A DNA stretch of 64,000 nt from Moorella sp. Hama-1 (lineage in GTDB: Bacteria > Bacillota > DSM-521 > Neomoorellales > Neomoorellaceae). A program made the position numbers and the translations under genes. The notes under the pieces are model-generated. The model saw only the letters and a program-made list of their open reading frames with translations, was not told the DNA's origin and searched no databases. The DNA is taken from the NCBI RefSeq assembly GCF_023734095.1, contig NZ_AP024620.1, positions 244,501 through 308,500 of the forward strand. The letters run 5' to 3'. Positions 1,239 through 11,542 of this stretch are shown here, piece after piece; the stretch's first letter is position 1, and every line of letters starts with the position of its first letter.

Positions 1239-4200
1239 GTGTTGCCATTTATCGCGGACCTTCACATCCATTCCCATTACTCCATGGCTACCAGTAAAGA
1301 CGCCAACCCGGAGAACCTCTACCGCTGGGCGTGTTACAAGGGTGTAACCCTGGTGGGCAGCGGCGACTTTACTCATCCGGGCTGGCGGCAGGAACTCCAG
1401 GACAAGCTGGAACCGGCCGGAGAGGGGTTATATCAGCTCAAGGACGAGCTCTGCCGGCAAGTGGAGAAGGATTCCCTGGCGGAGTTAACAGCGGCCGGGT
1501 TACAATGGAGGGGCAGCCCTGCCGGTGCTTGGGCAATGGGGGAGGCGGCCACCGCTGGCTCCAGCTACCTTACCCTGGACGCTACCGGCCGGCCGGTGGT
1601 ACGTTTTATCATCAGCGGGGAGATCAGTACCATTTACAAACAGGGCGGGCGCACCCGCAAGGTTCACCACCTCATCCTCCTGCCCAGCCTGGAGGCGGCG
1701 GCGGAATTGAGTCGCCGCCTGGAGGAGATCGGCAACCTCCACTCCGACGGGCGGCCCATCCTCGGCCTGGACAGCCGCCGGCTCCTGGAGATGACCCTGG
1801 AGGCCTGTCCGGAGGCCATCTTCATTCCGGCCCACATCTGGACGCCCCACTTCTCCCTTTTTGGTGCCAATTCAGGCTTCGACGCTATCGAGGAATGCTA
1901 CGGCGACCTGGCCCGGCATATCTTTGCCGTGGAAACCGGGCTCTCCTCCGACCCCCCCATGAACTGGCGCCTGGCGGCCCTGGACCGGCTGACCCTGGTA
2001 TCCAACTCCGACGCCCACTCACCCCGGCACCTGGCCCGGGAGGCCAACCTTTTTAATACGGATCTTTCCTATCCGGCCCTGCGCCGGGCCCTCGAGGATC
2101 CGGGAGGTGACGGCTTCCGGGGGACCCTGGAGTTTTTCCCCGAGGAAGGTAAGTATCACTATGACGGCCACCGCAACTGCCAGGTCTGCTGGCAGCCGGT
2201 CCAGACCAGGGCCGCCGGGGGTATCTGCCCTGTGTGCGGCCGCAAGCTCACCATTGGCGTCCTGCACCGGGTGGAGGAACTGGCCGACCGGGAGGCGGGG
2301 TTCCGGCCGGGTGGTGCCCGACCCTTTGCAAGCCTGGTCCCCCTGCCGGAGGTCATTGCCGCCGCCCTGGGTATGGGGGTGGCCAGCAAAAGGGTGACGC
2401 GGGCCTATTTTAACCTGATCGGCACCCTGGGACCGGAGCTGCCAGTATTGCGGGAGGTACCCCTGGAAGCTATCGCCCGGGTGGCCGGCTCCCTGGTGGC
2501 CGCGGCCATCCGGCGCATGCGTACCGGCGAAGTAGAGGTCCATCCGGGTTTTGACGGCGAATACGGCAAGGTTTTCCTGCTACGGCCGGAGGAGCGCCAA
2601 CTCCTTTCCGAAGAGCCACGCCTTTTTATAGAGGATGCCGCTGTCGCACCCGTAGCGGCCACCGGGGAGGGCCGGTCGGAAATGGCCCTCCCCGGCCCGG
2701 CTAGTGCAACTACAGAAAAGTCCGCCCCGGATTCTCCCGGAAGGTGGGGCCCGGTCCTGAAGGGCGGAGTTTTGGTACCAATACCGGACCCATCATCAAC
2801 GCCGGCAGGACCCGCAGACCAGCAACCCCTCAATCCCGAACAACAGGCTGCCGTGGTGGCGACGGATGGACCGGTGGTAGTCGTGGCCGGCCCGGGCACG
2901 GGCAAGACTCGTACCCTGGTCTACCGGCTGGCTTACTTGATCCAGGAGCGGGGCGTCGCTCCGGGGGAGATCGCCGCCGTCACCTTCACCAACAAGGCCG
3001 CAGCTGAAATCCGCCAGCGGGTGGCTGACCTGCTGGGGGACAGGCAGGGATTATCAGCCCTGACGGTGGGGACCTTCCACAGCATCTGCCTGGACCTCCT
3101 CCAGGCTGGTCTACAGTTGGGAGCAGGCCGCTCGCTAACCATTATTGACGAGGTTGACGCCCGGGAGATCCTGGCTGAAGTCCTGGCGGAGGCTCAGGGG
3201 AGGGGCCGGCGGGGGGTAACCGCCTTGCAACGGCAGATCTCCCTCCTAAAAGGCCGCGGCCTGTTCCCGGATGCCCCGGATGTGCCGGATGACCTGCGCC
3301 CCCTCTTCCGATCCTACCAGGAGCGGCTGGCGGCCTATGGCCTCCTCGATTACGACGATATCCTCCTGCAGGCCCTGGAGTTCCCTAAGCTCACCCCGGA
3401 GGTTCCAGGTACGGACAAGCGCGAACAAGATGGAGACCGGGGAACTGTTCCCTTTACCCATCTCCTGGTTGACGAGTTCCAGGATGTCAACGCCGTCCAG
3501 TACCAACTGGTAAAAAAGTGGGCCGGTAACGGAAAGAACCTCTTCGTAATCGGCGATCCCGACCAGGCGATTTACGGTTTTCGCGGTGCTGATTATCGCT
3601 TTTTTGGCCAACTCCTGCAAGACTTTCCCGTAGCCCGGCTCTTTCACCTGCACCGGAATTACCGTTCGACGCCGGTCGTCCTCCGGGCGGCCGCCGGGGT
3701 GGTTGCCCATAACCCGGCCGAAGGCCCCCTGAGCGTTACCCGGTCTGAACTGGCGGCCGCCTACCTGGAGCCTACTACCGCCCAGCCAGTACCTGCTGCC
3801 CTATCCGAGCCGGCCAGTGAAGCTGCCCCGGAGGTTACCCCCCCAGGTAGATTGCCATTCAAGGTAACCGGCACTGCTGGCGAGGCTGCTCCAAGGGTTT
3901 CCCGACCGCAGGGTTCCCCCATTATATACCTGGAAGCCCCGGGGGAGACGGCCGCAGGTATAGCCATCGTCAGGGAGATCGGTCGCCTGATCGGCGGCAC
4001 CACCATGCTCCAGGCCCACGGCCAGGGCCGGGGAGCCAAAAGGGGGGGCCTGGAGCCCGGGGATGAGGAAAGCTACGGTTTCAGCGATATAGCCGTCCTC
4101 TGCCGCACCGGGCGTCAGCTGCAGTTCCTGGAGGAATGCTTTCTGAAGGAGGGCCTGCCCTATCGCATTGTAGGCCGGGAGAGTTTCCTGGAGGCAGCCC

Positions 4201-5057
4201 CGGTCCGTCAAGCCCTGGCCTTCTGCCGTTGCCTGGTAAATCCAGGCGACGATTTCTACCTCCGGCAATGCCTTGCCGGTCATCAGGGCATCAGCCGGGA
4301 GACCGCCGCCCGGATCGGGGAGCTGGCCCGGCGGCAGGGGAGCCCGCTCTGGCAGGTCCTCGGTGAACTCGCCGGTGGTGGAGGAAACCGGCCACCAGCG
4401 GCGGTTGCGCCAGCCCTGGAGGCTTTTCCCTGCGGGCCGGCGCTCCGTAGCCGTCTCCAGGCCTTTATCGACACCCTGACCACCTGCCGCGCCGCCCGGG
4501 GGGGACATTCTCCTGCCGACCTCCTGGCCCGCTGGGCTAAAGAAAAAGGCCTCCTGAATGAGGAGTCCCTGAACCGGTTAATCCGGGTGGCAGCGGGCTT
4601 TTCCGACCTTTCCTCCTTCTTGCGCGGGGTCGTCCTGGCCGGTGAGGCCGATCATGAACGCCGGGGGCCCAGGGACCTCTCCCCGGAAGTGATTACCCTC
4701 ATGACCCTCCACGCTGCCAAGGGTCTGGAATTCCCGGTGGTCTTTATTGCCGGTCTGGAGGATGGTGTGTTGCCCCTGCGGGAACGCCAGGGGGCGAACC
4801 TGACTCCGGAAGAGATGGCCGAAGAACGCCGCCTCTTCTATGTCGGCATGACCCGGGCCCGGAAGTTGCTGTATCTGGTGGCGGCCCGGAGGCGGGAGCA
4901 AGGTGGTGCCACGGTACCGGCGGAGCCTTCCCCCTTCCTGCAGGAGATACCCGCCGGTTGCCTGGTGGCGCGGGCCTGGGAAGGCAGGGGTAAAAGCAAG
5001 GGTAGTAACGACGGTGTGGAAGATGACGCGCAGTATAAACAGCTGAGCTTGTTTTAA
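1239..5057 (+). CDS. EndoQ-like PHP nuclease fused to UvrD/PcrA helicase, with C-terminal beta-clamp motif
   Basis: A single 1272-residue protein. Residues 1-410 match the EndoQ/YqxK family: PHP metal motif DLHIHSHYS at 7-15, SGDFTHP near 42, then a four-cysteine zinc site (CQVC near 314, CPVCGRK near 330). Residues about 410-530 are a linker. From about 535 there is a superfamily 1A helicase: Walker A AGPGTGKT near 550, TFTNKAAAEIR, LLVDEFQDVNAVQ, GDPDQAIYGFRGAD, RNYRST, TLHAAKGLEFPVVF near 1155 and EERRLFYVGMTRAR. The last five residues are QLSLF, the consensus bacterial sliding-clamp-binding pentapeptide. EndoQ enzymes nick 5' of deaminated bases; the helicase could open the nicked strand. 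Start GTG follows GGGTGA. In other organisms the two parts are usually separate proteins. Confidence 0.88.
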   Translation: MLPFIADLHIHSHYSMATSKDANPENLYRWACYKGVTLVGSGDFTHPGWRQELQDKLEPAGEGLYQLKDELCRQVEKDSLAELTAAGLQWRGSPAGAWAMGEAATAGSSYLTLDATGRPVVRFIISGEISTIYKQGGRTRKVHHLILLPSLEAAAELSRRLEEIGNLHSDGRPILGLDSRRLLEMTLEACPEAIFIPAHIWTPHFSLFGANSGFDAIEECYGDLARHIFAVETGLSSDPPMNWRLAALDRLTLVSNSDAHSPRHLAREANLFNTDLSYPALRRALEDPGGDGFRGTLEFFPEEGKYHYDGHRNCQVCWQPVQTRAAGGICPVCGRKLTIGVLHRVEELADREAGFRPGGARPFASLVPLPEVIAAALGMGVASKRVTRAYFNLIGTLGPELPVLREVPLEAIARVAGSLVAAAIRRMRTGEVEVHPGFDGEYGKVFLLRPEERQLLSEEPRLFIEDAAVAPVAATGEGRSEMALPGPASATTEKSAPDSPGRWGPVLKGGVLVPIPDPSSTPAGPADQQPLNPEQQAAVVATDGPVVVVAGPGTGKTRTLVYRLAYLIQERGVAPGEIAAVTFTNKAAAEIRQRVADLLGDRQGLSALTVGTFHSICLDLLQAGLQLGAGRSLTIIDEVDAREILAEVLAEAQGRGRRGVTALQRQISLLKGRGLFPDAPDVPDDLRPLFRSYQERLAAYGLLDYDDILLQALEFPKLTPEVPGTDKREQDGDRGTVPFTHLLVDEFQDVNAVQYQLVKKWAGNGKNLFVIGDPDQAIYGFRGADYRFFGQLLQDFPVARLFHLHRNYRSTPVVLRAAAGVVAHNPAEGPLSVTRSELAAAYLEPTTAQPVPAALSEPASEAAPEVTPPGRLPFKVTGTAGEAAPRVSRPQGSPIIYLEAPGETAAGIAIVREIGRLIGGTTMLQAHGQGRGAKRGGLEPGDEESYGFSDIAVLCRTGRQLQFLEECFLKEGLPYRIVGRESFLEAAPVRQALAFCRCLVNPGDDFYLRQCLAGHQGISRETAARIGELARRQGSPLWQVLGELAGGGGNRPPAAVAPALEAFPCGPALRSRLQAFIDTLTTCRAARGGHSPADLLARWAKEKGLLNEESLNRLIRVAAGFSDLSSFLRGVVLAGEADHERRGPRDLSPEVITLMTLHAAKGLEFPVVFIAGLEDGVLPLRERQGANLTPEEMAEERRLFYVGMTRARKLLYLVAARRREQGGATVPAEPSPFLQEIPAGCLVARAWEGRGKSKGSNDGVEDDAQYKQLSLF

Positions 5058-5182: not shown

Positions 5183-6850
5183 TCAAAGGGCCCGGGCGGA
5201 CGGGTAAACTTCCTCCACGGCGGCTATAAAAAGGTCGACCAGGTTGGGGTCATAAAGGCTACCGGAGTGTTTTTTTAGCTCCAGATAGGTTTCATAGGAT
5301 TTGAGGGCATGGCGGTAGGGGCGGTCGGAGGTCATGGCGTCGAAGCTGTCGGCCAGGCGGACGATGCGGGCCAGGAGGGGGATAGCCTCGCCGGAGAGAC
5401 CATCGGGATAACCGGAGCCGTCGTAGTTTTCGTGATGGTAGCGGATAATGGGGGCTATGGATTTTAAAGACGCAATGGGCTGGACCATGTCGCTGCCCCA
5501 GATCGTATGGCGCTGGGTAAGCAACCATTCCCTGCTATCAAGGGGTCCGGCCTTGGTGAGGATGGCGGTTTCGATCTCGATCTTGCCGATATCGTGGAGG
5601 TAGGCCCCGTAGCGCAGGGTATCCTTTTCTTCCTCGGTTAGGCCCAGTTTCTGGGCCAGGGCCAGGGCGTAGGACATGACCCGTTCCGAATGGCCGAAGG
5701 TGTAGCGATCCTTGGCGTTGATGAGGGCCATCAGGGTTTGCAGAGCGGGGAAGGCGTCCTTGATCTTCAGGGTGCTGATCTCGCTTAAGACGGACTGATA
5801 GAGGTAGGTATGGCCCTTGCTGTATTTGGCCCGGAAGAGGTCGTTCTCCGCCGCCCGGATGAGCAGGGAGACCTCCTCGCCGTCGCCGGGATAAACGGCC
5901 GCCCCCAGGGAGATGGTAAAGGGCTTACCATTGGTCCAGCCATCCCCCGTCAAGGCGGTAGAGGCCTGGACAATAATCCGCGCCGCTATACCAGCAGCTA
6001 TTTTTAGGGCCTCGTCCTTGCCCTTGCCGGGCATAACTAAGGCAAATTCATCGCCGCCATAACGGGCGGCATAGAAGGGCTTCCCTATTGCCTCCTGGAG
6101 CAACCGGCCGGTGGAACTCAGGATCTCATCGCCCTTATGGTAACCATAGATGGAGTTGTAGTATTTAAACTGGTCGATGTCCATAATGACAATGGCCAGG
6201 GGTTCCCGGGGCGCCCCGGCCGTTTGCAAAAACTGGGTGAGCCTTTCCTGAAGGTAGCGATGGTTGTACAGGTCCGTCAGCTGGTCGTAGTCGGCCAGCC
6301 GGAGTAGTTCCTGCTGGGTATTCCTTTCTACCTCCATCAGGCCGCCCACCAGCCAGGCTACCAGAATGGTGACGCCGGCGATAATGATATTGGTTTGAAA
6401 GACCTCCGGCAGCAGGTGGTGCAGCACCCGGTAATCGAGGAAGAAAAGGTAAGCACTGGCCAGGGCTGCCGCAGCGATACCGGCATTCTTGCCGAAGGCG
6501 GTGGCCGTTATAATAACCGGGATAATAATTAAAAACCTTGCCTCCAAAAAATTCTGGCTACGCCAGATAAAGGTAAGAGTTAAAGGAAAAACGACGGCCA
6601 GGAGCAGGATTTCGTCAGTTTTGGATTGATCGAAAAGGGAGGCTTTTGCAATAGCCTTCCGGAGAATATAGATAACAGCACCAATACAAAATATAACTAG
6701 CAGGAAGCTAAAGCGTATAGATAATGCGTTTCCAAGATTTATATTATAATAGCTGAAAACAATCATAAGAAAGATCAATAGGCAAACGATATGAGTAACC
6801 AATATATACTCAGATATCTCGGCAATCCTTCTCTTTTCCCATAACCGCAT
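5183..6850 (-). CDS. Membrane GGDEF / HD-GYP protein (cyclic di-GMP turnover)
   Basis: About 555 residues from the ATG at 6850, preferred because GGGAG lies 8 bases upstream; the frame extends 11 codons further but would start inside a palindrome. The N-terminal 190 residues contain about six membrane segments. Next is a GGDEF domain with an intact YGGDEF signature near residue 263; the usual RxxD inhibitory site just before it is absent. The C-terminal third is an HD-GYP domain (HDIGKIE near 417, HHENYDGSGYPDGL). GGDEF domains make and HD-GYP domains degrade cyclic di-GMP, so the net activity is uncertain. It lies downstream of the agr-type genes on the same strand, 128 bases after agrD. Confidence 0.92.
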   Translation of the reverse strand: MRLWEKRRIAEISEYILVTHIVCLLIFLMIVFSYYNINLGNALSIRFSFLLVIFCIGAVIYILRKAIAKASLFDQSKTDEILLLAVVFPLTLTFIWRSQNFLEARFLIIIPVIITATAFGKNAGIAAAALASAYLFFLDYRVLHHLLPEVFQTNIIIAGVTILVAWLVGGLMEVERNTQQELLRLADYDQLTDLYNHRYLQERLTQFLQTAGAPREPLAIVIMDIDQFKYYNSIYGYHKGDEILSSTGRLLQEAIGKPFYAARYGGDEFALVMPGKGKDEALKIAAGIAARIIVQASTALTGDGWTNGKPFTISLGAAVYPGDGEEVSLLIRAAENDLFRAKYSKGHTYLYQSVLSEISTLKIKDAFPALQTLMALINAKDRYTFGHSERVMSYALALAQKLGLTEEEKDTLRYGAYLHDIGKIEIETAILTKAGPLDSREWLLTQRHTIWGSDMVQPIASLKSIAPIIRYHHENYDGSGYPDGLSGEAIPLLARIVRLADSFDAMTSDRPYRHALKSYETYLELKKHSGSLYDPNLVDLFIAAVEEVYPSARAL

Positions 6851-6871
6851 AGTCGTTACTCCCGTCGCGGA

Positions 6872-6912
6872 TGTAAACACCATTATCTTTTTTAAAGATA
6901 ATGGTGTTTACA
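6872..6912. promoter_or_regulatory. Perfect 19-bp inverted repeat upstream of GGDEF/HD-GYP gene
   Basis: Arms 6872-6890 and 6894-6912 are exact reverse complements separated by three bases. The sequence is AT-rich (arm starts TGTAAACACC). It lies 22-62 bases upstream of the chosen start of the GGDEF/HD-GYP gene and downstream of agrD. In the minus-strand transcript it would form a long hairpin but has no following U-run, so it is a poor terminator. It fits an operator for a dimeric regulator or an RNA-processing or translational control hairpin. Confidence 0.6.
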
Positions 6913-6978
6913 GCTAGAGTTAGCAAACTGAACTAAGTATCGATGCCGGGAGGGCGGGTTCCCGGTCAATGAAACCTG

Positions 6979-7110
6979 TTATTTTTTCAGGGCAGCAGGA
7001 ACCTCGGGCTGGTACCATAATACTGTACAAGCAGGCTTGATGGTGGTCAGGGCCACCAGGGTCAGGAAGCTGAAGCAGGTAGGCAACAGGCGATAGAAGA
7101 GGCGCTTCAT
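6979..7110 (-). CDS. agrD: AgrD-type cyclic lactone autoinducer pro-peptide
   Basis: A 43-residue ORF. Its ATG overlaps the AgrB stop codon (ATGA), and GGAGG lies upstream inside agrB. Layout is typical of the family: a basic amphipathic N-terminus (MKRLFYRLLPTC), a hydrophobic helix, then PACTVLWYQPEVPAAL. The Cys28-x3-Trp32 stretch fits a five-membered thiolactone ring, and YQPEVP matches the conserved C-terminal recognition segment of cyclic lactone autoinducer peptides. AgrB should cleave after the ring and close it. The mature peptide sequence is inferred. Confidence 0.85.
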   Translation of the reverse strand: MKRLFYRLLPTCFSFLTLVALTTIKPACTVLWYQPEVPAALKK

Positions 7111-7742
7111 GCTGTTATTCCTCCTTTGGCCATGAGGTTATCTATCAGAATGGCAAACCAGTGCCCCGCCCTGGTTAAACTAAAGGTTTGCCACCACAGA
7201 CCCAGACTGAGGGCCAGGACCAGGGGTGCAGATTGGAGTGTAACCAAGATAAACACCTGGAGGGCAGCAATCAGGATTACCAGCAATAGGGAAAGGGAGC
7301 GCAGCTTCCGGCGTTCCGCCGGAGAGGTGATGGGTTTGGCCGGGGAATCCACCGGCGCCCGGCGCCAGGCAACTACGACCGCCACGATAAACCCGGCCAG
7401 GATTATTACTAACAGGCCGGCAGGGGTAATCAAGGGCGCCGCCAGGGCCGCCAGCTTCCCCAGGAGGGGGGCGACGATCATCCCCAGGAGATTACAGGTC
7501 AGAGGGGAACGGCTGTGGGCGCCGCCGGCAAAAAGGCGCAGGCTCGCCGCTGCCAGGGTGACAACCAGGGTGAGGGCCAGGACACCCAGGAGCCAGCCCG
7601 CCAGGCAAATGGAGAGGAAGCCGGTGACGGTATAGACCAGCATCTGCAGGCCAAAAAGGGCGATGGCTTCTTCATCGGAGTTCAAGTGGAGGTGTTCTTT
7701 TAAGTAGGCGGCGGCCGGGCGCGTCAGGGAGAGCTTCAGCAT
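7107..7742 (-). CDS. agrB: AgrB-like accessory gene regulator peptidase
   Basis: A 211-residue integral membrane protein with five to six hydrophobic segments. The catalytic His and Cys of AgrB peptidases are present in RLFAGGAHSRSPLTC near residues 70-84. AgrB removes the C-terminal tail of AgrD and catalyses thiolactone formation. The start ATG at 7742 is preceded by GAGGGG. It overlaps the upstream membrane gene by 7 bases and the downstream agrD by the ATGA junction, so the three are translationally coupled. No AgrC kinase or AgrA response regulator gene is present nearby. Confidence 0.9.
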   Translation of the reverse strand: MLKLSLTRPAAAYLKEHLHLNSDEEAIALFGLQMLVYTVTGFLSICLAGWLLGVLALTLVVTLAAASLRLFAGGAHSRSPLTCNLLGMIVAPLLGKLAALAAPLITPAGLLVIILAGFIVAVVVAWRRAPVDSPAKPITSPAERRKLRSLSLLLVILIAALQVFILVTLQSAPLVLALSLGLWWQTFSLTRAGHWFAILIDNLMAKGGITA

Positions 7743-8206
7743 GTTAAACCCCTCTTGAGGTTGTAGTAGTTTTTACCCAGGGCCACCATCAGTAAGAGGA
7801 CCTCATAGGGCAGGGCAAAGGCCGCCCTGAGGAAAGGGTCGGCAAAGCTCCTTTCATAAGTCAACCCGGTTAACTTTAAGAGCGGCCCGGTATAGGCCAG
7901 CTCGGCCGCCGCGACCATGGCAACACATATCAGCACCGCCAGGAAGGTCCAGCTGAGCCGGGTCCCGGTCAGGAGCCGGGTGTAGATGGCCAGGGAGATA
8001 ATCAGGACTACCGAGTGCATGCCGAAGGTGATGGGCAAATAACGGATCAGGTTGGTCAGGGTTTGCAGGACTGCCACCGCCAGGATTCGTTTATCCCGCA
8101 GGCGGATATTTAAAAGGCTGAAGACGACCATGGTCTCGACCAGGCTTTCGGGAAAATCCTGGAGGACCAGGGCATATATGGCGTGCGCTAGACTCTCTTG
8201 CAGCAT
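7736..8206 (-). CDS. Membrane protein upstream of agrB, possible orphan sensor domain
   Basis: A 156-residue protein from the ATG at 8206 (GGAG six bases upstream; the frame opens at 8221). It has four to five hydrophobic segments, an N-terminal LQDFPESLVETMVVF segment, and an ...LADPFLRAAFALPYE... type loop before the last helix. This layout resembles the membrane sensor part of GHKL-type histidine kinases in Peptococcales, but no kinase domain follows. It is the first gene of the agr operon. Being co-encoded with AgrB and AgrD suggests a part in autoinducer export or sensing; that is inference. It matches no family I can name with confidence. Confidence 0.65.
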   Translation of the reverse strand: MLQESLAHAIYALVLQDFPESLVETMVVFSLLNIRLRDKRILAVAVLQTLTNLIRYLPITFGMHSVVLIISLAIYTRLLTGTRLSWTFLAVLICVAMVAAAELAYTGPLLKLTGLTYERSFADPFLRAAFALPYEVLLLMVALGKNYYNLKRGLTC

Positions 8207-8584: not shown

Positions 8585-11542
8585 ATGGCCAGGGATAGGA
8601 TCATCGTTAAAGGGGCGCGGGCCCACAACCTGAAGAATATCGACGTGACCATCCCCCGGGACCGGCTGGTGGTCATTACCGGCCTCTCCGGCTCGGGTAA
8701 ATCTTCCCTGGCCTTTGACACCATTTACGCCGAAGGCCAGCGCCGTTATGTAGAATCCCTGTCTTCCTATGCCCGGCAGTTTCTGGGCCAGATGGACAAA
8801 CCCGACGTCGACGTTATCGAGGGGTTATCCCCGGCTATCTCCATTGATCAGAAGACGGCCAGCCACAACCCCCGCTCCACTGTGGGCACGGTGACAGAGA
8901 TCTACGATTACCTGCGCCTCCTTTTTGCCCATATCGGCCGCGCCCATTGTCCCGTCTGCGGCCGGCCCATTGCCCCCCAGACGGTCTCCCAGATGGTGGA
9001 TCGCCTGCTGACCTACCCGGAAGGGACCCGCCTGCAGGTGCTGGCGCCTGTTGTCCGGGGCCGCAAGGGCGAGTACCGCAACGCCCTGGAGGAAATACGC
9101 CGCCAGGGTTACGTCCGCATCCGGGTGGACGGGGAGACCCGTGAGGCCAGCGAAGATATCCGCCTGGCTAAGAATAAGAAGCATACCATCGAGGTCATCG
9201 TCGACCGCCTGCAGGTGCGGCCCGGGGTGGCCGGTCGCCTGGCGGAATCCCTGGAGACGGCCTTGAAGATGGGTGACGGTGTGGTCCTTATTGACATCGT
9301 CGGCCAGGAAGAATTTTTGTTAAGCGAGAAGTTCGCCTGCGTGGAGTGCGGCGTCAGCCTGCCGGAGATTACTCCGCGGCTTTTTTCCTTTAATAATCCC
9401 TACGGTGCCTGTCCGGCCTGTACCGGCCTGGGGATTACTATGAAGGTAGACCCCGGCCTGGTCATTCCGGACCACAGCCTGACCCTGCGGGAGGGGGCCA
9501 TCGCCCCCTGGAGCCGCGGCAATAATGGCTACCCGCAGATGCTGGAATGCCTGGCGGCTCACTATGGTTTCAGCCTGGATGTGCCGGTCAAGGAACTGGC
9601 GCCGGAATACCTCCAGGTGATCCTCTATGGTTCCGGCAGGGAACGGATCAAATTCCGTTATACCAACCGTTTTGGCGACCGGCGGGCCTATGAGGCTCCC
9701 TTTGAAGGGGTGATCCCCAACCTGGAACGGCGCTACCAGGAGACCCAGTCGGAGTGGTCGCGGGCGGAGATCGAAAACTATATGAGTCAGCAGCCCTGCC
9801 CGGCCTGCCGGGGGGCGCGACTGAAACCCGAGGCCCTGGCCGTCAAAGTGGGGGGGCTCAATATCTGCGAACTCACGGCCCTGGACGTCCGGGCGGCGGC
9901 CGATTTTTTACGGCACTTGGATTTAAGTGAGCGTGAGGAGATCATTGCCCACCAGATTTTAAAAGAGATCCTGGCCCGGCTGCAGTTTTTACTGGACGTG
10001 GGCCTGGACTACCTGACCCTGGACCGGGCGGCGGCCACCCTCTCTGGAGGCGAGGCCCAGCGTATCCGCCTGGCCACCCAGATTGGTTCCCAGCTCATGG
10101 GCGTCCTTTACATCCTGGACGAGCCCAGCATCGGCCTGCACCAGCGGGATAACGCCCGGCTGATTGCCACCCTGAAGCACCTGCGCGACCTGGGCAACAC
10201 GGTCATCGTCGTCGAGCACGACGAGGATACCATGCGCGCCGCCGATTATATTGTCGATATTGGTCCCGGGGCCGGGGAGCACGGCGGCCGGGTGGTGGCT
10301 GCCGGGACGGTGCCGGAGGTTATGGCCAATCCCCGCTCCTTGACCGGCCAGTACCTCAGCGGGCGACGGCGCATCCCGGTGCCGGCGGTCCGGCGCCGGC
10401 CAGGGGATAAATGGCTGACTATTAAAGGCGCCGGGGAGCACAACCTCAAAGGTATCGACGTCAGTTTCCCCCTGGGCCTCTTCATCGGCGTGACCGGGGT
10501 CTCCGGTTCCGGTAAGAGCACCCTGGTCAATGAGATCCTCTACCGCGCCCTGGCCCAGCGCCTCAACGGCGCCCGGACCAACCCCGGGGCCTTCGCCGGG
10601 ATTACCGGTACCGAGCACCTGGACAAGGTCATTGAGGTCGACCAGGCGCCCATTGGCCGGACGCCCCGTTCCAACCCGGCCACCTATACCGGGGTCTTTG
10701 ACGACATCCGCGCCCTTTTTGCCGCCACCCCGGAGGCCCGGACCCGGGGATATAAGCCGGGGCGTTTCAGCTTTAACGTCAGGGGCGGCCGTTGCGAGGC
10801 CTGCGGTGGCGACGGTATTATCAAGATCGAGATGCACTTCCTGCCTGACGTCTACGTACCCTGCGAGGTCTGCGGCGGCAAGCGTTATAACCGGGAGACC
10901 CTGGCCATAAAGTATAAGGGTAAATCCATCGCTGATGTCCTGGCCCTGACCGTGGATGAGGCGGCCGAGTTCTTTGCTGCCATTCCCCGGCTGCACCGGC
11001 GGTTGAGCACCCTCCAGGACGTAGGCCTGGGGTACATCACCCTGGGCCAGCCGGCTACCACCCTCTCCGGCGGTGAAGCCCAGCGGGTGAAGCTGGCCAC
11101 AGAGCTGGCCCGGCGCAGCACCGGCCGCACCATGTATATCCTGGATGAGCCCACCACGGGCCTGCATATGGCTGATATCGAGCGCTTGTTGAACGTCCTG
11201 CAGCGCTTGGTGGATGCAGGGAATACGGTAGTAGTCATCGAGCATAACCTGGATGTCATTAAATCAGTCGACTATATTATCGACCTGGGGCCCGAGGGCG
11301 GTGCTGGTGGTGGCCGGGTAGTTGCCACCGGGACTCCGGAGGAGGTCTGCCGGGTGGCTGCCTCTTATACGGGCCAATTCCTGGCCCCCATCTTGGAGCG
11401 GGACCGGGACCGGCCGGCCCGGGAAATACCCGGGACGGAACTGGCAGGGGAGGGCCTGCGGAGCCCGGCCCGGGCCACCAGTCCGGCTGCGCCGGACCCG
11501 GAGGAAAGCCAACCCCTGCCCCGGGTGGTAGGCCAGGAGTAG
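8585..11542 (+). CDS. uvrA: Excinuclease ABC subunit A
   Basis: 985 residues, slightly longer than the usual 940 because of a Pro/Arg-rich tail of about 45 residues after the second ATPase. First ABC ATPase: Walker A GLSGSGKS at 33-40, signature LSGGEAQR near 486, Walker [11 protein letters not shown] near 509. Second: GVSGSGKST near 638, signature near 828, LDEPTTGLH near 853. Zinc cysteine pairs include CPVCGRP near 122, CVECG near 252, CPAC near 276 and 405, and CEACGG/CEVCGG near 737-770. UvrA dimers recognise DNA lesions and load UvrB. AGGAGG precedes the ATG. uvrC follows 16 bases after the stop in the open frame. Confidence 0.98.

Follow-up and report, generated by a model that had tools for sequence, protein, structure and literature searches.

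A conserved gene cassette places a predicted split AgrC-type sensor half, agrB and agrD beside a membrane GGDEF/HD-GYP protein in Moorella and other Bacillota

INTRODUCTION

Peptide signalling in Gram-positive bacteria usually relies either on a kinase and a regulator or on import of the peptide followed by intracellular binding. Our subject is a quartet of minus-strand genes in Moorella sp. Hama-1, spanning positions 5183-8206 of a stretch of 64,000 nucleotides (nt) that we call the window (positions 244501-308500 of the 3.32-Mb closed genome). The quartet consists of a gene for a small membrane protein, here named X, followed by agrB, agrD and a gene for a membrane protein with GGDEF and HD-GYP domains, here called the enzyme. 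It resembles the canonical agr system (AgrBDCA) of Staphylococcus aureus and clostridia in AgrB, AgrD and X, the predicted counterpart of the AgrC sensor half; where the canonical system has the catalytic half of the kinase and AgrA, the quartet has the membrane GGDEF/HD-GYP enzyme in their place. We propose that X, agrB, agrD and the enzyme gene form one signalling cassette, in which a receptor-enzyme would read the AgrD peptide and set the level of cyclic di-GMP (c-di-GMP) directly, and we put the probability of this reading at roughly 0.64.

In the RpfC/RpfG system of Xanthomonas, a quorum signal, the diffusible signal factor (DSF), reaches an HD-GYP phosphodiesterase by way of a hybrid kinase that passes phosphate on to a receiver domain; the cassette shares the HD-GYP end point, and its enzyme has no receiver domain. 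In RpfR, the Burkholderia diffusible signal factor (BDSF) raises the phosphodiesterase activity of a PAS-GGDEF-EAL protein, and the genes of receptor and signal synthase are neighbours (PMC6361424). The likeness lies in a quorum signal that acts directly on a protein with cyclase and phosphodiesterase domains, an action that we propose for the cassette as well. RpfR differs in its fatty-acid signal, PAS domain, EAL hydrolase and Gram-negative background, and its input parts are not homologous to those of the cassette; the enzyme, built from six transmembrane (TM) helices, GGDEF and HD-GYP, would work like RpfR without being a member of the PAS-GGDEF-EAL type. The agr1 locus of Clostridioides difficile contains agrB1 and agrD1 without agrC or agrA and is active in vivo (PMC8534292); that report names agrB1 and agrD1 only, whereas the cassette adds a conserved sensor half and a c-di-GMP enzyme. 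The agr regulon of the same species includes changes in the transcript levels of c-di-GMP enzymes, brought about through AgrA (PMC3754575), in contrast to an enzyme that is encoded within the agr locus itself. Our literature search found no description of a c-di-GMP enzyme serving as the output of an agr locus; an earlier mention in subscription journals is possible.

The cassette combines known parts in a new wiring, together with two unnamed membrane domains. If the proposal is true, a receptor-enzyme through which a secreted cyclic peptide directly alters a second messenger would constitute a third route of Gram-positive peptide signalling. The cassette also offers a candidate function for agrBD without agrCA and for the two membrane domains still lacking a family name, and it makes the inputs to the c-di-GMP networks of acetogens and sulfate reducers accessible to testing.

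Conservation of the cassette

The order X, agrB, agrD, GGDEF/HD-GYP was found in more than 20 loci of the phylum, with flanking genes that vary. By our own count, which includes the weaker linked matches L261 and L262 (L numbers are our handles), cassettes are present in about 22 GTDB families and about 37 of the 299 sampled genomes of the phylum, with relatives of Moorella and Desulfofundulus among them. Named carriers include Desulfofundulus australicus, an Ammonifex, a Desulfovirgula, a Pelotomaculum, a Thermanaeromonas and Candidatus Formimonas warabiya. Within the Neomoorellaceae, eight other genomes harbor a close X (58-69% identity) with a close relative of the enzyme directly downstream and with differing flanks; agrB and agrD lie between the two genes in seven of them, and the eighth (L042) has no agrB and a broken enzyme gene. 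At this locus, Moorella mulderi and Moorella stamsii are the closest named relatives. A distant type of cassette, with X about 25% and the enzyme about 36% identical, retains the same order in L057, L075, L076, L077 and L079. The varying flanks argue against plain inheritance as a block.

The linkage was recovered from the opposite end as well. A profile of the 6-TM domain of the enzyme, run against the same 299 genomes with a cut-off of E < 1e-25, gave 46 matches, of which 37 carry GGDEF/HD-GYP and the other nine are GHKL kinases. Intact agr genes adjoin 35 of the 37; the remaining two are L235, with an agrB fragment, and L264, at a contig edge. When only the 12 that were outside the set used to build the profile are considered, 10 are linked, one has the agrB fragment and one lies at the contig edge. 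An earlier note on this DNA had named the four genes on one strand, which family matches and coordinates confirm, and had drawn their connection from adjacency in a single genome. The cassette linkage is far stronger than that, and the lack of conserved synteny in relatives that the note had allowed for was not found.

As a separate observation, three Moorella-type genomes have a second large GGDEF gene immediately upstream of X and in the same orientation (L040 7993-10395, L041 8001-10370 and L043 6088-8547).

X as a split-off sensor half

X has no match to any Pfam or NCBIfam family. A close homologue (L120) is modelled by AlphaFold2 as five long helices with a mean predicted local distance difference test (pLDDT) score of 92. 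The X profile has matches in 103 of the 299 genomes, mostly as short copies of 150-200 amino acids (aa), and many of the matches listed belong to longer open frames (440-496 aa). In L131, L143 and L144, X occupies residues 8-169 and is followed by a further membrane stretch and then by SPOB_a and HATPase_c_5. These fused kinases were recovered by the profile begun from X, with E about 1e-43 after iteration, and those of L131 and L143 adjoin agrB and agrD. Some other agr operons carry a separate X followed by a short GHKL kinase (about 280 aa) whose N terminus looks like two TM helices. Because X occurs both as an in-frame fusion with SPOB_a/GHKL kinases and as a neighbour of short 2-TM AgrC kinases, it is, by homology, a split-off form of the sensor half, the membrane part, of AgrC-type kinases, and on the same grounds it would belong to the receiving side. 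This agrees with the earlier description of the 156-residue protein as a sensor without its kinase.

A fold search of X against the PDB gave no match at E <= 0.001, and in fold comparison with VIA-align Z did not exceed 6.4, a level that unrelated helical bundles also reach. A phage-borne AgrC, tried as a yardstick for X, matched mostly in the kinase half. Two or three X genes stand in tandem before agrB or agrD in the cassettes L127, L129, L136, L214 and L216.

One input domain with swapped outputs

The 6-TM domain bears either GGDEF/HD-GYP or a histidine kinase, mostly beside X and agr genes. It has a kinase output beside X or agrD in L146, L163, L168, L177, L178, L180, L189, L250 and L263. 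Among the nine GHKL kinases of the reverse search, several are fused to an AgrA-like part and six adjoin X or agrD. The output is thus swapped on a common 6-TM input domain. Pairwise distances correlate best of all pairs tried between X and the 6-TM domain (r 0.94), compared with 0.89 for X and AgrB and 0.83 for the 6-TM domain and its own GGDEF domain. This fits a joint receptor and is not proof of contact, since both are fast-evolving membrane parts.

AgrB, AgrD and the predicted peptide

AgrB matches its Pfam family at E 8.6e-36 and keeps the His/Cys catalytic pair in the pattern G-x-H-x6-C (GGAHSRSPLTC). AgrD matches its family model at E 4.4e-9, with 36.3 bits against a cut-off of 19. The AgrD tail YQPEVPAAL aligns with the tail DEVEVPKEL of S. 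aureus AgrD-I, and the thiolactone ring is therefore predicted to be Cys-Thr-Val-Leu-Trp, cut before YQPEVP. The ring position is Cys in the cassette-type AgrDs of the Neomoorellaceae and Ser in those of the kinase type.

The GGDEF/HD-GYP enzyme

Pfam matches of the enzyme are GGDEF (E 4.5e-33) and HD_5 (E 6.8e-38). Its model (pLDDT 85) has six membrane helices, the last of which extends as a long signalling helix into the GGDEF and then the HD-GYP domain. The HD, HHE and GYP motifs and the metal ligands are invariant in all 38 aligned relatives, in none of which the RxxD inhibitory site (common, not required) is present. The GGDEF signature is intact in 28 of these proteins, and its second Gly is lost in 10 (GSDEF, GNDEF, ANDEF, GHDEF). 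Because the HD-GYP residues never vary and the GGDEF signature is lost in part of the set, the constant output is, as far as conserved residues indicate, hydrolysis by HD-GYP and not synthesis by GGDEF. For the window enzyme, both activities could be possible.

The nearest solved HD-GYP sequences are 5z7c, a phosphodiesterase of 3'3'-cyclic GMP-AMP (3'3'-cGAMP), and 4mcw (E 2.9e-34); the two score equally per domain, and by sequence the substrate may be either c-di-GMP or 3'3'-cGAMP. A Hypr-type GGDEF domain, which would synthesize cGAMP, was considered and is countered by the invariant N243 and D252. These residues, which we take to tell Hypr-type from c-di-GMP-type domains, speak for the c-di-GMP type. 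The only full-length match to the enzyme in the window genome is the window protein itself. Nine c-di-GMP-I riboswitches over the cut-off and one PilZ protein are found in this genome, so that c-di-GMP has receivers there.

Other agr loci and c-di-GMP riboswitches

No GHKL kinase (HATPase_c_5) or LytTR regulator open reading frame (ORF) adjoins the four genes, so the locus has AgrB and AgrD of the canonical set and lacks the AgrC kinase and the AgrA regulator, as the earlier note had stated. The window genome harbors three further agrB loci (Table 1), each with its own agrD and with Ser at the ring position, which argues for separate signals. The AgrC-like kinase elsewhere in the genome that the note had considered does exist, as part of an intact agrCA pair; this pair carries its own agrBD with a ring Ser, and crosstalk is possible. 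The interpretation in that note, a short route from peptide to c-di-GMP, is thus supported in part, by the sensor half and the conserved linkage; peptide binding and the change in c-di-GMP are predicted, and the agrCA pair elsewhere could count against it.

Two of the further loci are damaged. In the 1.06-Mb locus a transposase-like gene splits agrC, and X, agrB and agrD remain (L047 6967-8661). Near 2.26 Mb, decayed kinase-type copies retain AgrC/AgrA fragments, a shortened AgrB and an open AgrD frame (L048 12152-13187 and 8315-8582). Downstream of agrD in two genomes, L048 2131-2288 and L055 2868-3025 match the group II intron domain RF02001 with 81-86 bits.

Riboswitches of the c-di-GMP-I class lie about 60-190 nt upstream of X in four of 16 scanned loci (L139, L148, L149 and L153). 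All four lead kinase-type X-AgrC-AgrB-AgrD-AgrA operons, L139 and L148 being from one genus, and in L148 a terminator-like hairpin follows the riboswitch. The genomes of L139, L148 and L149 also hold a cassette (L162, L157 and L164, respectively). No riboswitch was found directly upstream of X in a further scan of 27 loci, cassettes except for three of the kinase type, and neither the window nor the scanned cassette loci have one directly before the cassette. Where they are strong, the riboswitches of the kinase-type operons may allow the cassette to act on the kinase-type agr system through c-di-GMP. In the window genome, a weak c-di-GMP-I-like element (L276, 2259621-2259698) precedes the intact kinase-type operon; it scores 31.2 bits against a cut-off of 35, and 29.1 against 59 with a related model, and is probably degenerate. 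A similar weak element (L275, 2245613-2245690) precedes a decayed copy of the start of that operon. In L187 (1604-1687, minus strand), shortly after a kinase-type agr operon, a c-di-GMP-I-GGC riboswitch match separates an AgrA gene from an HD-GYP gene.

Proposed mechanism and alternatives

In the mechanism that we propose, AgrB would mature and export the peptide encoded by agrD, which is most likely a thiolactone of five residues (CTVLW ring). X would sense the peptide at the membrane jointly with the 6-TM N-terminal domain of the enzyme, and binding would alter the turnover of c-di-GMP by the enzyme directly, without a histidine kinase or response regulator. The GGDEF domain would add synthesis or, where degenerate, GTP sensing. 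By analogy with RpfR, the most likely direction is a stimulation of hydrolysis by the peptide, with less c-di-GMP at high cell density. This raises the wider possibility, to which we give somewhat less than even odds, of a widespread receptor class in which the split AgrC sensor X and the 6-TM domain gate any output, mostly a c-di-GMP phosphodiesterase/cyclase, without a phosphorelay; the riboswitches before kinase-type operons would then link two agr systems.

Several observations weigh against the single-cassette reading. The loci share ancestry, and the linkage counts cannot be taken as independent. Among solved structures X lacks a clear relative, profile comparison detected no homology between X and the 6-TM domain, and neither is covered by any Pfam family. 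No agr genes lie within about 4 kb of the 6-TM kinases L251, L256 and L258. The intact agrCA pair elsewhere in the genome could read this peptide. Finally, 17 of 29 gaps between agrD and the enzyme gene across loci fold as RNA with z below -2.5, compared with 7% in the 120 nt that precede X and 11% beyond the enzyme gene, so that the enzyme gene may in part be transcribed separately. Because hairpins recur at this position, the premise of co-transcription in the earlier note is weakened. In the window, the gap folds strongly (z -7.4) and contains an inverted repeat that is unique in the genome. A terminator-like T run follows the hairpin in L164, L177, L179 and L183, and others, that of the window included, have none. 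The hairpin may be an attenuator or an mRNA-end element that keeps expression of the peptide genes above that of the enzyme. Two other identities of the repeat were ruled out: it is present as a single copy, unlike a mobile repeat, and an Rfam search gave chance miRNA matches only.

Only the 6-TM domain is fused to the output, X overlaps and stays beside agrB, and three 6-TM kinases have no nearby X; the enzyme alone might thus be the receptor through its 6-TM domain, with X aiding the maturation, export or stability of AgrB/AgrD. We consider this unlikely, since in-frame fusions join X to SPOB_a/GHKL kinases and X pairs in L178 and L189 with kinases that have no agrB or agrD nearby, which places it on the receiving side. 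Less probable again is a cassette that merely makes the peptide, with an AgrC elsewhere as its reader and the enzyme co-localised for shared regulation. The intact X-AgrC-AgrA-AgrB-AgrD operon would supply such a reader, and the hairpin in the gap before the enzyme gene might mean that transcript levels differ on its two sides. Each kinase locus of the genome, however, has its own agrBD, with Ser instead of Cys in the ring, and the 6-TM domain is nearly always agr-linked on enzymes and mostly so on kinases.

The fixed order of peptide and enzyme genes, with no kinase needed, would also suit a peptide that is a private ligand fixing the state of the enzyme (for example, in sensing secretion capacity or the envelope) and not a density signal. 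The intact AgrB catalytic pair and the usual AgrD processing motif imply an exported cyclic peptide, and we regard a private ligand as quite improbable. A chance neighbourhood or an inherited block with no functional link, for which only the shared ancestry of some loci speaks, has a negligible probability in view of the number of families, the differing flanks and the recovery of the cassette from both ends.

Feature positions and neighbouring genes

The features of the window and the related elements elsewhere are collected in Table 1. The overlap is 7 nt between X and agrB and 4 nt between agrB and agrD, and a gap of 128 nt separates agrD from the enzyme gene.

Table 1 Positions of the cassette, its domains and flanking genes in the window, of further agr loci in the window genome (in Mb) and of riboswitches in the loci named
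Feature	Position	Strand	Remarks
X	7736-8206	minus	5-TM membrane protein, 156 aa from ATG 8206; homology to N-terminal half of AgrC-type GHKL kinases
AgrB	7107-7742	minus	membrane peptidase for AgrD; Pfam PF04647
AgrD pro-peptide MKRLFYRLLPTCFSFLTLVALTTIKPACTVLWYQPEVPAALKK	6979-7110	minus	TIGR04223
Inverted repeat	6872-6912	no strand	perfect, 19 bp, 3-nt loop; gap between agrD and enzyme gene
6-TM + GGDEF + HD-GYP protein	5183-6850	minus	start ATG 6850 from orthologue alignment; longest ORF from 6883
6-TM N-terminal input domain	6308-6850	minus	no Pfam family; common to agr-linked histidine kinases
GGDEF domain	5816-6295	minus	RYGGDEF intact, RxxD inhibitory site absent
HD-GYP domain	5240-5737	minus	HD, HHE and GYP motifs intact
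Flanking PcrA-like helicase gene	1239-5057	plus	named by reading the translation, no search
Flanking uvrA	8585-11542	plus	named by reading the translation, no search
Intact X-AgrC-AgrA-AgrB-AgrD operon	2.2566-2.2595 Mb		
X-AgrC-AgrB-AgrD locus	1.062-1.066 Mb		agrC cut by insertion sequence (IS) element
Decayed agr copy	2.265 Mb		
c-di-GMP-I class riboswitch	L139 4859-4942	minus	
c-di-GMP-I class riboswitch	L148 3977-4060	plus	
c-di-GMP-I class riboswitch	L149 4191-4275	plus	
c-di-GMP-I class riboswitch	L153 4106-4192	plus	

Farther from the cassette, two overlapping minus-strand genes at 417-887 (PIN-domain-like) and 866-1201 (AbrB-like) have the look of a toxin-antitoxin pair, as judged from their translations only.

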